From contig JABHBK010000042.1 in assembly GCA_018673915.1 (NCBI GenBank), positions 47,063 to 111,062 on the forward strand: 64,000 nt of DNA. Direction: 5' to 3'. The DNA comes from Nitrospina sp. (lineage in GTDB: Bacteria > Nitrospinota > Nitrospinia > Nitrospinales > VA-1). Under the pieces are notes generated by a model, which was not told the DNA's origin, did no database searches, and saw only the letters and a list, made by a program, of their open reading frames with translations. The translations under genes were made by a program, and so were the position numbers. Below are positions 28,109 to 33,560 of this stretch, in pieces. Position 1 is the first letter of the stretch. Each line of letters opens with the position of its first letter.

Positions 28109-29065
28109 ATGAAAACTGATAATGATGACCTTTCGGGGATGAAAGTCCTTCTAGTCGATGATGTTCCCGATAATATTGATATTCTTTTCCAAACACTTAA
28201 GTCCAAGAACTACCAAATTTCCATAGCAAATAGCGGAGCCAAGGCTTTAGATCTGGTCCTAAAATTGGGACCCGATTTGATATTGCTGGATATCATGATG
28301 CCAGAGATGGATGGGTACGAAGTCTGCAAAAGGCTTAAAGCCGATGCATCGACCCGGGATATTCCGGTCCTCTTTATTACTGCCAAAACGGAGACAAAAG
28401 ATGTGATAAAAGGCTTTAGGGTGGGTGGTCTCGACTATATTACCAAACCCTTTCGTCTGGAAGAAGTGCTGGCCCGTGTGGAGACGCATTTGAGATTGAG
28501 AAAGACTTTGAGAGATAAAGATAACCTGATTTCTGAATTGAGGGACACTCAGGAGATCTTGATGAACTCAGCTCGTATGGATTTGTTAACCGGCCTCCTT
28601 AGTCGACCAGGTCTGGAAGATAAGCTGGTTCAGGAGCAGTCCAAGAGCCAAATTATGGGAAAAGCATTCTCGGTGATTCTGGCTGATATCGATCATATCG
28701 GCGAGATAAATAGTAAATTCGGGATGAAAATGGGAGATCAAATAATCATTCGTACTGGATCTATCCTGAAAGAGAGTGTTGCAAACCAGGAGTTGGTAGG
28801 CCGATGGAGCAGTGAAGAGTTTTTGATTCTTCTTCCTGAAACAACGTTGGAGGAAGCCAAAGCACTGGCGGAAAAAATTCGTTCCCGCATAGAGAAAGAA
28901 AGTTTGAATTTCAACCAGAATCAAATTTCTTTAACTCTCAGTATGGGAGTCAATCATTGTTTGCCAGATATGGAATGGGATAAATGCATTGCCGAAGCTC
29001 AAGAGTGTATGCATCAGGCAAAAGCACTGGGACGAAACAGGCTGGTGGCTATAGATATGGACTAG
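28109..29065 (+). CDS. Response regulator with degenerate GGDEF domain
   Basis: 318 residues. The receiver (about 9-128) is intact, with the phosphoacceptor Asp in LILLDIMMPEMDG and Lys in ITKPFR. A GGDEF-type domain (about 155-315) has SSEEF instead of GGEEF and no RxxD inhibitory site. Its metal/substrate segment is partly altered (ADIDHIGEINSKFGMKMGD). It is therefore probably inactive as a cyclase and may act as a c-di-GMP or GTP sensor or protein-interaction domain. A close relative with an intact motif is encoded at 49510-50427. cheR follows on the same strand after 62 bases. Confidence 0.88.
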   Translation: MKTDNDDLSGMKVLLVDDVPDNIDILFQTLKSKNYQISIANSGAKALDLVLKLGPDLILLDIMMPEMDGYEVCKRLKADASTRDIPVLFITAKTETKDVIKGFRVGGLDYITKPFRLEEVLARVETHLRLRKTLRDKDNLISELRDTQEILMNSARMDLLTGLLSRPGLEDKLVQEQSKSQIMGKAFSVILADIDHIGEINSKFGMKMGDQIIIRTGSILKESVANQELVGRWSSEEFLILLPETTLEEAKALAEKIRSRIEKESLNFNQNQISLTLSMGVNHCLPDMEWDKCIAEAQECMHQAKALGRNRLVAIDMD

Positions 29066-29127: not shown

Positions 29128-29952
29128 TTGTCTATCAGTGCTGACGACTTTCAAATAGTTCAAAAATTTCTATTAGAAAATTCTGGTATTTCTCTTGCTC
29201 CTGGAAAGGAATATTTGGTCGAAGGGCGACTGCAACCCTTGGTTTACAGTGAAGGGTTTGACGATATACACGTGCTAGTTGTTGCGCTGAACAAGAACTC
29301 TGAAAGTGATTTGGGTAAAAAAGTCATAGAGGCTTTGACCACCAATGAGACCTCATTTTTTCGTGACAAGCACCCCTTTGAGACTTTAAAGACAGCGATT
29401 ATTCCGGAGCTTTTAAAAAAAACACAGGCCAATAAAAAGATTCAAATTTGGTCAGCGGCCTCTTCCAGCGGTCAGGAGCCTTATTCGCTGGCCATGCTTT
29501 TAGCTGACTCTTTTTCATGGGTAAAGGACTGGGATATCCGGATTGTGGCCAGTGATATTTCTGAAGAGATGTTGGAAAAATGCCGGTCCGGGTTGTACAG
29601 CCAGTTCGAAATATCACGAGGGCTTCCGGCGCATTATCTTCCCCGGTTTTTTCAGAGAGCCCAGTCCAAATGGCAGATCAATTCGGAAATCAGGGAGCGC
29701 ATTGATTTTTGCTACCTGAATCTCTATGAAGATTGGGTGGGCCTGCCACCTCTGGACATTATCTTCATGAGAAATGTTTTGATTTATTTTGACAAAGATA
29801 CTAAAAAAACAATCCTCGAAAAAGTGATCAAGGTGTTAAAGCCAGGCGGGTACCTGTTCATGGGTTCTGGAGAGAAGCCTGATGGGCTGGAGGAGCATTT
29901 TCAGACGACAGACTTTTCCACCTCCGCCTGCTTCAAGCTTGTGTCCGCCTGA
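29128..29952 (+). CDS. cheR: CheR-type chemotaxis receptor methyltransferase
   Basis: 274 residues. An N-terminal helical domain is followed by the SAM-dependent methyltransferase with IWSAASSSGQEPYSLAM (about 110), DISEEML and FMRNVLIYFD (about 213). It methylates glutamates on chemoreceptor signalling domains. The start is TTG 29128 with GAGAGG seven bases upstream. The chemoreceptor gene lies convergent just downstream and is a plausible substrate. Confidence 0.9.
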   Translation: MSISADDFQIVQKFLLENSGISLAPGKEYLVEGRLQPLVYSEGFDDIHVLVVALNKNSESDLGKKVIEALTTNETSFFRDKHPFETLKTAIIPELLKKTQANKKIQIWSAASSSGQEPYSLAMLLADSFSWVKDWDIRIVASDISEEMLEKCRSGLYSQFEISRGLPAHYLPRFFQRAQSKWQINSEIRERIDFCYLNLYEDWVGLPPLDIIFMRNVLIYFDKDTKKTILEKVIKVLKPGGYLFMGSGEKPDGLEEHFQTTDFSTSACFKLVSA

Positions 29953-30081: not shown

Positions 30082-30945
30082 TTAATGGTTGAGCACATCG
30101 TTCTTTGTTGATAGCGCGATAGCGGCGGCTTCCTGGATCATCTCATTCGGAACATTTAATTCTCGCAATGTACTTCCAAGTTGTTCCATGACTTTGTTGA
30201 AATGGGATTCTTTTAGCCCCTTCGCCACAAGGCGTTGATGGGCTTCTCTCATACTTTTTCCTGAATAGTTTTGAGCACCGCCAAAAGCATAAGTTAAGAA
30301 TACTTTCATCTTACCTTTTTGACGATTCATATCGACCCCATCGAAGAAGGGTTTTAAACTACTGTCGTTCATAACCTTGTCATAAAAAACTCCCACGGCT
30401 GCATCCACTGCCCCTTTTCCTCCTATGCGATCAAAGAGAGGTTCTTTGTGAGTAGTTTTGTTTCCTGACTTTTTTTCATATTCTCTGACCAGGTTTTGCA
30501 TAACCATAGACATTTTAGAGAGTTCCTTGGAGGCCATGCCAGTGTCATCGGCACCCTGTTTTGTGCTCCCTGCCGCTTTCGCCACCTCAGCCGTGTTTTC
30601 GGCGATCTGGATGCTTCCCGTTGCCGCTTCTTGGACATTTCGACTCATCTCATTCGTGGTTGCTGTTTGTTCTTCCACCATACTGGCGATGCTGGTGGCG
30701 ATATCATTGATTCGACTGACAACCTGGGTAATGTCCGCAATGGAATCCACCGCTTCTCCGGTATCGGTTTGAATGGCCTGGATCTTGGTGCTAATGTCTT
30801 CGGTGGCCTTGGCGGTCTGGTTTGCCAGTTCCTTGACTTCGTTGGCGACTACAGCAAAACCTTTACCTGCTTCTCCAGCACGAGCCGCTTCGATGGTCGC
30901 ATTTAAGGCGAGCAGGTTGGTTTGTTCGGCAATGGAGGTGATCAC
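30082..30945 (-). CDS. Chemoreceptor, 3' part: signalling hairpin plus truncated haemoglobin
   Basis: The first 160 residues contain the conserved chemoreceptor tip ([19 protein letters not shown]...). The GTG at 30945 is internal, not a real start. Residues about 168-287 match group 1 truncated haemoglobins (GlbN): [17 protein letters not shown], the B10-type Tyr in [15 protein letters not shown], and the proximal-His stretch MREAHQRLV. The distal His of cyanobacterial GlbN is replaced by Lys. A C-terminal heme globin would make the receptor a cytoplasmic O2 or NO sensor. Confidence 0.85.
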
Positions 30946-33560
30946 TTTAATGACATCACCAATTTCCTGGCTGCTGTCTCCCAGTTTACTGACGATTTGG
31001 TTGGCCTTTTTGGCACCCTCAACGGCATCGGCGGTGACCTTCGGGCTTCACTGGAATTGCCGGAAATTTCCTTGATGCTGGCACTCATTTCTTCTGTGCC
31101 CGTGGCAACGGTCTGGACGTTTTGACTGATTATATCTGCCAAGGAAGAAACCTCGTTAGCCTGGTCGGCAGTAGCTTGCGAATTATTGCCCATTTCAGTA
31201 CTGACCGCAGCCAGTTCTTCGGATGAGGCCCCAAGGGTCTGCACCACCTCAGTGATTTGCATCATGACTGAACGCATTTCATCTGTTTGTTCCCGCTCCT
31301 TTTTTTCCATTTCCAGTTTTTGCGTGATGATTTCCCAGGTCAGCATGGGTCCCAGATAGTTCTGGCTCTCATCAAACAGAGGGCTCACTAAAAGATCGAG
31401 GATTTCTGGCCCTACTTGAATTTGTGCTGTATGCGGAAGGTTTTTAGGGTCGGAAAGAATCTTGCGTTGGTGTGCCGGGTTTTTGTGAAAAATATCGATG
31501 CTTTGGCCGATCATGTCGTCGACCTTGGTTGGAAGATATTGCTCAAGGGTCTTCAGGGTTTTGGCTGATTCCGGATTCATAAATTGCATTGTTAAATCGG
31601 TGTCGGCATACAAAACGTTGGTAGGCATTTGCTTCATTAACGATTCTGACCTGGCCATTTCGGTTGTGGCAACCCGCAAATTTTTCACCATGGTTGACAT
31701 CGAATCACCCAGAGTACCGTTCGTGTCATCTTTCAGGTTGGAGTTGTAGAGATCATTGGTGGCTATATAGCCTGCTTGCCCCGCTACCCACTTCATTTTT
31801 TCTGTCATTTTGGTGAATGCTTCACCCAAATCACCGGTGAGACTCGTATCTAGAATTTGGTTGTTCAGATCGTCATTCGCGATAAGATTTGCCTGCACTG
31901 CCAGCTTTCTCATTTGAGAGTTGAGGTTATCCAATGCATCTGCCAAATCCCCTTTAGTAACTTGATATTTATTTCTTATAAAGCCTGTGGCCTGGTCCAG
32001 GTTTTGTCCTTGTTTAATATTTTCCAACACCTCTTGGGTATCGAGTTGTCCCGCGGCTATTTCCTGAGTTTGTTCCTGCAACAGTTGTAAAGTGGCGAGC
32101 ATTTGATTGGATGATCTTGTTAGATCTCCTATTTCATCAGAACTGGAGTTGTTAAGAGGTTGTTGCTTCAAATCGCCATTTGCAATTTTTTCCACTACGG
32201 TTACTACCCCTTTAATCCTCCTGGAAGTTAAACCTGCTATATATATGGCGATAATTAAAATCACCACTCCCAGACCGATACTGATATATAGACTCATATC
32301 TTTAATAAGGTCTTGAGTGATGAAGGCTTCTGCTTCATCTAATTCTGCCAGGATTCCCCATTTCAACCCCAGTATATCTACAGGACCGTAGGAGCTGAGA
32401 ACTGGAACACTGCGGTAATCCGGGAAGATTTGAAACCCGGATTGCCCCTGAAGGGCTGCTTTCGACCCAAGTGATCGGACTTCAGCAATACCAATGGTGG
32501 TTCCCAAAGCTTTTTGTTTTTCGATGGATTTGGGGTCGACTCCGAGCTTTTCGATGGTGCTGAAATACTCCTTTGGGGTTTCTACAAAAAACCGGGAATT
32601 GTTTCTGAGTTTAAAATCGGGACCCACCATATAGACTTCCCCTGAATCTCCCAGCCCGACTTTTTTCCATTGCTTGTTACTGGTCATGATCGCGTCAATG
32701 CGATCTACCGGTGCCTGAAAAATGAGGACTCCTATCATTTCTCCTACATCGTAAACAGGTGAGGCGATGAAAGACGCAGCGGCATTGTAGGAAGGTTCAT
32801 AGGGAGAAAAATCATCTATCGCTACGAAATCAGGAGCATTGCCGGCAATGGCGGCATTGAACGCACGTCCAATTCCCGAATTACTGTAGGGTCCCGTTTT
32901 TAAATTTGTTGCGTAGTCGATTTCCTTAAAAACAGAGTAAACGATAAATCCCGTATCAGCATCAACCAGGAAAATGTCGTAGTAGCCGAATTTTTCCAGG
33001 TACTGGCGAAACATTGGATGAAATTGTTCATGAACCTGAGTGTAGGAGCTGTAGTCCCCGGCTGTATCCAGCTTTTCTTTTTCTCCGATAGGATGGGTGT
33101 TTTCAGAGATATAGAGAGATTGTAATATTTGAGTCGACTTTTGTTTGGGGAACCAGCGGGTTGCAGCGTCTGATGAAACGCCTGGGGTGTTTTCCATCTG
33201 GTACTTGTAGCGATCCATCAATTTTGAATTCTGGGTATCCCCATGCTTACTTTGCATTTGGTCCTCTACCTGGGAAAATGCGGTGCTGAATCTTCCAAGG
33301 GCATCGACCGTCATGGTGTTTGTGGAAAAAGTGATAACCTGATTGCCAATTTGTTTGAAATAATTTTCGATCTGTAGTTTTTTACTTTCCCTGAGGGAAG
33401 TCAGTCGGCTCTTATTGAGCTCCAGGATATTTTCATGAACGACTTTGGAGGTGGCGACGAAAGACAGGATTAACGGAATCAACCCGGTTAAAATCATTAA
33501 AACGATTAACTTCTTTTTGATATCCCAATTCCCGCCAGTACTGTTCCCAGAATTTTCCAT
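30942..33560 (-). CDS. Chemoreceptor, 5' part (cache sensor, HAMP, PAS, start of signalling domain)
   Basis: GGGGAGGA precedes the ATG. Membrane helices at about 16-37 and 430-452 enclose a periplasmic domain of about 390 residues of the double-cache type. HAMP follows (about 455-510), then a helical HAMP-like array and a PAS-like domain (about 655-770, [18 protein letters not shown]). The methyl-accepting domain starts at about 775. The last 25 residues, after GNSSEAR, are out-of-frame translation caused by the missing base near 31040. The true protein continues in the frame of the 30082-30945 ORF. Confidence 0.85.

Follow-up and report, generated by a model that had tools for sequence, protein, structure and literature searches.

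An Aer2-like chemoreceptor of Nitrospina that ends in a group 1 truncated haemoglobin, a candidate tethered sensor of O2 or NO

A receptor gene with a haemoglobin tail

We analysed a chemoreceptor gene on the minus strand of a 64,000-nucleotide stretch of DNA from Nitrospina sp. (the window, meaning that whole stretch; GenBank assembly GCA_018673915.1, contig JABHBK010000042.1, positions 47,063 to 111,062) and found that its coding sequence ends in a group 1 truncated haemoglobin. The source lies within the Nitrospinaceae, and its genome (G000) is a 75-contig draft that is 92% complete; G, C, L and P labels are our own handles for genomes, contigs, loci and proteins, and positions without a locus label are those of the window. 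A first-pass annotation had read 30082-33560 as one gene in one frame, which overlooked a one-base slip at 31038-31041. In the list of open reading frames, the upstream frame (30942-33560, minus) encodes 872 residues, and its receptor part (31041-33560) holds a membrane and periplasmic region recognised by eye, a HAMP domain, an Aer2-type PAS domain and the start of the methyl-accepting hairpin. The C-terminal frame (30082-30945, minus) encodes 287 residues from a GTG at 30945, is open upstream to about 31047, and holds the rest of the hairpin and the globin.

The globin occupies the last 122 codons (30085-30450, minus). It strongly matched the Pfam family Bac_globin (PF01152) at 2.7e-14, with 53.8 bits against a cut-off of 21, over residues 170-278 of the 287. 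Among sequences of the PDB, phmmer returned 31 matches at 0.001, all of them globins, and those named by type were truncated haemoglobins. The best were Synechocystis GlbN (4e-31), Chlamydomonas THB1 (2e-26) and Mycobacterium tuberculosis HbN (about 1e-17), and the top 25 of the 31 are THB, GlbN or HbN entries, entries named group 1, or ciliate and algal globins, which we take to be group 1 as well. Entries for HbO, of group 2, followed only at about 2e-4, placing the window globin closer to group 1. Alignment A1 and the site table contain the Gly-Gly motifs, F8 His and B10 Tyr of group 1 truncated haemoglobins, bearing out the first-pass annotation, which had named a C-terminal group 1 globin with a proximal His and a B10 Tyr. 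The pocket codons (minus) are B10 Tyr at 30382-30384, E7 Gln at 30319-30321, E11 Met at 30307-30309 and F8 His at 30238-30240; the positions come from alignment A1, and the helix-position labels are presumptive. In a predicted model of the 287-residue frame (predicted local distance difference test, pLDDT, 69; predicted template modelling score, pTM, 0.35), ten-residue blocks of the globin scored 54-82. Group 1 truncated haemoglobins were the best Foldseek matches of this model in the PDB (1dly, 4e-7, TM-score to target 0.76), and, as modelled, the window globin has the 2-on-2 fold. Judged from its sequence, the tail is a genuine group 1 truncated haemoglobin, predicted to bind heme.

We rejected a chance match or an adjoining free-standing gene, because hairpin and globin share a frame in the window and in L036, L037, L038, L043 and L046. 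A protoglobin or globin-coupled sensor domain was rejected as well, as the window pieces had no match to Protoglobin (PF11563) at 0.001; together with the C-terminal place of the PF01152 globin, this upholds the contrast that had been drawn with sensors whose globin is N-terminal. Between the window and its orthologue L037 (G008), the globins differ by 0.68 at synonymous sites (dS) and 0.03 at nonsynonymous sites (dN), which implies strong constraint on the tail over the time since these species diverged; a break that arose recently in either of them would be invisible in these values. Among 45 globin pairs, 35 of which have saturated dS, five pairs with dS of at most 1.5 have dN/dS of 0.04-0.12, and four of these are pairs of the out-of-frame globins described below.

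Aligned by tblastn, the L037 protein passes through both window frames and switches between them at 31038-31041, and for this reason we take the receptor gene to be interrupted by one net base within the hairpin (31036-31046, minus), where the two frames abut. From 31041 to the end of the globin, the window and L037 are 96% identical. L037 is open across the slip point to the globin's end, and its upstream PAS region is interrupted by stops. In this assembly the window copy counts as broken; the slip may be a sequencing error or a genuine break, and a full-length window product is putative.

The hairpin part in the C-terminal frame (30571-31041, minus) matched MCPsignal (PF00015) at 1e-28 over residues 2-125 of the 287. 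The globin starts about 45 residues past the end of this match and about 10 past the predicted end of the hairpin C-helix, behind a linker of roughly ten residues (30445-30471, minus) that is predicted to be flexible (pLDDT below 50 at residues 159-167). An in-frame run of seven A at 30470-30476 (minus) touches the start of the linker, and a slip in either direction there would terminate the protein within 20 codons. The N-terminal region of the upstream frame has hydrophobic segments, by eye, and the HAMP domain lies at 32085-32240 (minus; PF00672, 7e-11). The periplasmic cache domain of the first-pass annotation corresponds to a weak dCache_1 match at 32622-32987 (minus; PF02743, 5e-6), which at 26.7 bits stays below the Pfam cut-off of 45. 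Adjoining and convergent with the receptor is a gene for a CheR methyltransferase (29128-29952, plus; PF01739, 1e-61), beside which lies a PleD-like response regulator with a GGDEF domain (28109-29065, plus; PF00072, 2e-28; PF00990, 1e-32). FliG is present in the window's genome.

An Aer2-type PAS domain in the same receptor

The PAS domain, at 31338-31634 (minus; residues 643-741 of the upstream frame), carries an FHKNPAHQR motif and a conserved Trp. It matched the heme-PAS structures 6ceq (1.1e-17), 3vol (3.7e-14) and 4hi4 (6.9e-14), of which 6ceq, listed as a methyl-accepting chemotaxis protein (MCP), is presumably Aer2 of Vibrio cholerae. The Trp near the end of the domain is common to the window and the Aer2 entries (3vol and 4hi4). 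The NCBIfam Aer2 model matched at 1.3e-26, far under that model's curated cut-off, and no Pfam PAS family matched the window receptor at 0.001. The PAS domain of the first-pass annotation is thus supported by the Aer2 structures and not by Pfam, and its Aer2 type had been missed. Counting from the construct, we take the His of FHK to be H234 of Pseudomonas aeruginosa Aer2. According to a 2026 review of aerotaxis, heme is coordinated through H234 in that protein (PMC13401364; here and below, statements from cited papers refer to the parts of them that were covered). The window PAS is predicted from its sequence to bind heme, and a receptor with an Aer2-type PAS and the globin may hold two different hemes.

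Pfam finds a single HAMP domain, and the stretch between it and the PAS is HAMP-like by eye only. In protein searches, the Aer2-type motif was present in 11 of 15 MCPs with a C-terminal globin and in 25 of 36 with an N-terminal globin. It also occurs in three of the nine non-globin MCPs of G000, two of the nine being incomplete frames. We rejected the idea that the motif is special to globin receptors, because with 11 of 15 against 3 of 9 the control is too small.

Related receptors in the phylum

With alignment A1 as query and a threshold of at least 110 bits, a search of 77 genomes from the phylum of the window gave 19 loci in 17 genomes. The remaining matches scored at most 70.9 bits in frames of at most 270 residues, except for the second piece of the broken globin of G022. 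All but two of the 19 globins are fused to, or lie directly behind, an MCP (11 loci) or the kinase CheA (6 loci); the other two are in G021 (a 138-residue frame) and G061 (a 164-residue open reading frame with a short helical-looking stretch and the globin). At five MCP loci (in G008, in G013, which is of the window's genus, and in G028, G038 and G050), the hairpin is followed by a complete globin without any break in the frame, so that the globin is not separately encoded in these relatives. The window itself shares one frame between the two domains and is slipped upstream, and G022 is in frame at the junction with a globin that is broken beyond it. At the other four MCP loci (G032, G035 and G060 twice), the globin lies directly behind in another frame. 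These relatives, and others outside the phylum, rule out a fusion private to the window's genome. A separate scan of genome contigs gave mostly short globin frames; among the 80 matches listed, of 546 confirmed, only L055 lies in a frame of more than 420 residues, and L053 and L054 are out-of-frame junctions.

Two of the in-frame loci are mini-receptors, of 240 residues in G038 (L046:4009-4728) and 242 residues in G050 (L043:4931-5656), in which Pfam at 0.001 finds nothing besides MCPsignal and Bac_globin. With hairpin and globin only, the globin is the sole recognisable input, which favours a role as sensor; judged from sequence, no other finding of this analysis speaks as strongly for a sensory role.

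Haemoglobin inside CheA

One of the three CheA genes of G000 also contains a globin. This protein (L034:4549-7215; G000:C22:112548-115214) has the order Hpt, globin, P3, HATPase, CheW, CheW, and L035 has the same order. The L034 CheA gene is flanked upstream by an MCP that has PAS domains and two motifs of the Aer2 type, and downstream by a CheW gene. The six CheA loci of the phylum are in G000, G024, G036, G044 and G046, as identified by Pfam, and in G016, where the Hpt-globin part alone was recognised, by eye, before masked bases. In an AlphaFold model of the CheA-globin protein, P1 and further helices extend to residue 140 and are followed by disorder at 141-152, the globin at 154-272, disorder at 276-333 and then P3; ten-residue blocks of this globin scored 69-93, mostly at least 84, and the globin part of the model, with the 2-on-2 fold as predicted, matched THB1 (6cii) in Foldseek at 1e-6 with a TM-score to target of 0.93. 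Profiles placed the globin between P1 and P3 in 31 of 34 CheA-globin proteins (a motif regular expression had found 21 of 34), and P0036, P0101 and P0104 had no P1 match. In the CheA P0044, three truncated globins follow one another between P1 and P3.

In enteric CheA, P2 occupies the linker in which the globin lies here. Pfam scans of L034, L035, L039, L040, L041, P0038 and P0044 found no P2 family at 0.001, no P2-bearing control CheA being among the proteins scanned. We rejected a replacement of P2 by the globin, since the two globin-free CheAs of G000 (L050 and L051) also lack a P2 match. Of these two CheAs, L050 (L050:313-3177; G000:C25) is 954 residues long and has two Hpt domains ahead of P3.

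The pocket residues were compared in the site table, whose rows include near-copies (for example L034/P0022, L036/P0016 and P0052/P0053). F8 His is present in all rows of C-terminal MCP globins (24 of 24), CheA globins (38 of 38) and N-terminal MCP globins (36 of 36), and B10 Tyr in 24 of 24, 37 of 38 and 36 of 36, respectively. At E7, 25 of 38 CheA rows have Leu, while Gln is found in all 24 C-terminal MCP rows and in 33 of the 36 N-terminal ones; E11 in the C-terminal rows is Gln in 20 of 24 and Met in four, the window included. By these residues, the receptor and CheA tiers tend to differ in their pockets.

Poly-A runs at the receptor-globin junctions

At seven of the 11 MCP loci, a run of at least seven A lies at the linker (window 7, G013 7, G035 8, G032 9, G060 9 and 9, G022 10), and no such run was found at the linkers of G008, G028, G038 and G050. 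Four MCP-globin junctions are out of frame, at runs of eight or nine A (L168:6090-6140, L167:6220-6270, L165:6380-6410 and L045:1495-1520). At three of these junctions (that of G032 and the two of G060), a stop ends the MCP frame one to five codons past the run, and the globin, in the -1 frame, is immediately preceded by a stop in its own frame. That frame has its first ATG, GTG or TTG in the middle of the B helix (both G060 junctions) or in the E-helix region (G032). As these start codons lie inside the globin, a complete globin would require a shift or else initiation at an unusual start codon. In G035 the shift has the opposite direction, and an upstream start lies 99 codons before. Between the globins of G032 and G060 (C64), dS is 1.10 and dN 0.09. 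Across 490,086 strand-bases of these loci there are 11 runs of at least nine A, four of them at these junctions, which are partly homologous and thus not independent. The window slip was rejected as one of these sites because it lies outside any homopolymer. In G022 (L044:5035-5396; G022:C15), the frame continues from the MCP into the globin across a run of ten A but is interrupted within the globin, close to a second A run. G032 has a degraded globin remnant behind a different MCP (L166:4661-4934; G032:C31).

That these junctions are out of frame despite purifying selection may reflect slippage, phase switching or assembly error. Poly-A slippage that yields two products is described for tssM of Citrobacter, at a run of 11 A (PMC4256274). 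It is a separate question whether the window slip and the homopolymer breaks are all assembly errors in genes that are plain in-frame fusions, which we consider a real possibility at somewhat less than even odds. The assemblies are drafts, two of the three genomes (G032 and G060) were, to judge by their names (OFTM181 and OFTM191), produced by one project, the window slip has no homopolymer and its orthologue L037 is open across it, and the in-frame proteins P0013 and P0014 fall within the out-of-frame clade. By contrast, error does not readily account for an identical state of nine A at the same site in two species separated by dS 1.10, for nine A again at a different G060 receptor junction, for eight in G035 and ten in G022, or for the rarity of such long runs elsewhere in these loci.

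Globin-bearing receptors and kinases in other lineages

Proteins with the order N-terminal globin, PAS, MCP account for 36 rows of the tree set. Five of them have organism names: an alphaproteobacterial metagenome-assembled genome (MAG), two Phenylobacterium, and Paracrocinitomix and a Fulvivirgaceae bacterium, both of which we take to be Bacteroidota. C-terminal forms outside the phylum come from a Rhodospirillales MAG (P0073) and Candidatus Thiodiazotropha (P0086), and two of the CheA-globin proteins with a receiver domain are named as alphaproteobacterial (P0064 and P0081). Counting free-standing globins as well, an A1-type globin was found at 1e-25 in 32 of 385 sampled genomes of the class of an alphaproteobacterial MAG and in 6 of 295 of the phylum of a Nitrospirota MAG.

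A quick tree of 176 rows placed the window among 11 C-terminal forms in one starred clade and grouped CheA globins like those of L034 and L035 in another, of 17 rows. A starred set of 33 mixes 18 N-terminal MCP, ten CheA, four free-standing and one C-terminal MCP globin, and the remaining N-terminal and CheA rows are placed outside these groups. We rejected a single origin for the fusions, as the tree needs nine changes to CheA, eight to N-terminal MCP and five to C-terminal MCP; starred branches alone force at least four, four and two, respectively. This spread suggests that the module was probably fitted to MCPs and CheA more than once. We use the tree loosely, because the domain is short, the tree is weakly resolved with 78 of 171 inner branches open, the chosen outgroup is not separated from the other rows by any single branch and L041 has a long branch. 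It leaves out P0001-P0005, P0020, P0021 and P0043 (multi-globin or eukaryotic-looking), the duplicate P0006, P0067, P0099, P0101, the L040 CheA, the broken L044, the scan rows L053-L055 and frames of more than 175 residues. Truncated globins also occur with a cytochrome c554-type domain (PF13435) in P0045-P0050, P0069, P0071, P0074 and P0078, with one globin towards each end in P0045-P0050, and at the C terminus of P0106, a hybrid GAF histidine kinase with two receiver matches.

Discussion

Several known systems resemble the window receptor in part. DcrH of Desulfovibrio vulgaris has a periplasmic part, HAMP, an MCP hairpin and a C-terminal hemerythrin, and O2 taxis has been proposed for it (PMC9388753, PMC13401364). 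The window receptor likewise has its putative O2-binding domain C-terminal to the hairpin, as placed by Pfam, but this domain is a heme truncated globin rather than a diiron hemerythrin, and the receptor also has an Aer2-type PAS. The signalling mechanism of DcrH is itself unproven. The window's genome also encodes an MCP with a C-terminal hemerythrin in a DcrH-like arrangement (L191:1503-3782; G000:C39; PF01814, 4e-12). Globin-coupled sensors such as HemAT share the control of an MCP by a globin, which in HemAT is N-terminal and of the 3/3 type (PMC13401364, PMC7082302), whereas that of the window is C-terminal, 2/2 and of group 1. With Aer2 of Pseudomonas and Vibrio, the window receptor shares the PAS with its FHKNPAHQR region and Trp, HAMP and the MCP hairpin; it differs by a likely periplasmic region and the C-terminal globin, which Aer2 lacks. 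GlbN of Synechocystis and HbN of M. tuberculosis have the same fold, F8 His and B10 Tyr, and the receptor globins have the GlbN-like Gln at E7, but both are free-standing proteins, and 25 of the 38 CheA globin rows have Leu at E7.

The combination of PAS, Bac_globin and MCPsignal was reported in 2018 for seven proteins in 8,075 complete genomes, with aerotaxis predicted, and gammaproteobacterial relatives with Bac_globin and without PAS are mentioned as well (PMC6194562); a fusion of this kind is thus not in itself new. Cc_4972 of Corallococcus coralloides and the six others have this Pfam globin family together with PAS and MCP in one protein, as the window receptor would; Cc_4972 is described as cytosolic (PMC6194562), and its globin may be C-terminal. 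P0083, presumably the Phenylobacterium zucineum protein of that list, has an N-terminal globin. At the window locus all three domains are present, but over two frames and with a PAS that has no Pfam match. The covered parts of PMC6194562 contain no CheA-globin, and no such fusion appears in those of PMC7082302, PMC4720485, PMC1592074, PMC3770913 and PMC3711429. In the parts covered of the open-licence literature, with subscription globin reviews outside the scope, we found neither a haemoglobin in CheA nor a stated C-terminal truncated globin on an MCP. In sum, the first-pass annotation was right about the globin, its group, its position and its key residues; it overlooked the slip, the Aer2 type of the PAS, the CheA-globin, the mini-receptors and the N-terminal forms.

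We propose, with a probability of about 0.58, that the window gene encodes an Aer2-like receptor ending in a group 1 truncated haemoglobin that is predicted to bind heme and is likely a tethered O2 or NO sensor tuning the CheA kinase. The proposal takes up the observed domain order, pocket residues, purifying selection, mini-receptors and CheA-globin of the same genome. In an MCP, the C-helix of the hairpin terminates where the signalling bundle has its base, adjacent to PAS and HAMP, and with a linker of about ten residues the globin would be held there, so that each receptor monomer would carry a heme globin on a short flexible tether beside PAS and HAMP. Binding of a ligand may alter how the globin docks on the bundle, the PAS or neighbouring receptors and thereby bias kinase activity or methylation, a mode of action like that proposed for the C-terminal hemerythrin of DcrH. 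The heme-PAS may add a second affinity range, and the globin of CheA, whose distal pocket differs (Leu in place of Gln at E7), may place gas control at the kinase itself.

Several points weigh against this proposal. Heme binding, ligand and signal direction are all predictions from sequence; the window gene is frame-slipped, and the model of its 287-residue frame has low confidence (pLDDT 69, pTM 0.35). Because the linker is short and predicted to be disordered, transmission through a rigid coiled-coil lever is unlikely. Only 17 of the 77 phylum genomes carry this globin type at 110 bits or more, and the broken globin of G022 and the degraded remnant that G032 retains indicate that the tail can be lost. 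P0036 and P0104, which lack any P1 (Hpt) match, are not explained by the CheA part of the proposal unless they are incomplete, and the pocket of truncated haemoglobins also suits NO detoxification.

In a rival reading, the tail would act as an enzyme on a tether, either an NO dioxygenase like HbN or a buffer of O2, which keeps these gases away from the Aer2-type heme PAS and the array and does not itself signal. Pockets with Tyr at B10 and Gln at E11, joined by Leu at E7 in 25 of 38 CheA rows, resemble NO-detoxifying HbN, the linkers of the receptor and CheA models are flexible, and a PAS motif to be protected accompanies the globin in most of the MCPs noted above (11 of the 15 with a C-terminal and 25 of the 36 with an N-terminal globin). 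Yet the mini-receptors of G038 and G050 have no recognisable PAS to shield, four of the 15 C-terminal forms lack the motif, three of the nine non-globin MCPs of the genome (two of the nine incomplete) have it, and the P1-P3 linker of CheA would be an odd site for a scavenger; we consider the enzyme unlikely, if worth keeping in mind. It would be more surprising still if the tail were a captured appendage, largely neutral and on its way out through frame slips. The window slip, the broken globin of G022, the remnant on contig C31 of G032 and the out-of-frame junctions of G032, G035 and G060 are what such decay would leave behind, but dN/dS is 0.04-0.12 in the five pairs with dS of at most 1.5, the pocket residues are nearly invariant, and the globin has probably been attached repeatedly to MCPs and CheA in several lineages.

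The sensor proposal can be extended, as a tentative and rather doubtful idea, to two-tier haemoglobin chemosensing in the Nitrospinota, with GlbN-like receptor tails and an HbN-like globin in the P1-P3 linker of CheA. In several species the receptor tail would be present on only a fraction of receptors, through slippage of RNA polymerase or the ribosome at runs of eight or nine A or through DNA phase switching, with cells setting the ratio of plain to tailed receptors.

Known direct heme sensing in chemotaxis uses an N-terminal globin or a PAS domain of the receptor. Here, a related small haemoglobin is found behind the hairpin, before PAS arrays and inside CheA in several lineages, which would relocate the sensing of gas from receptor to kinase. 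The mini-receptors would make the question raised by DcrH, how a C-terminal O2-binding domain signals, testable on a protein of 240 residues that is free of membrane segments.

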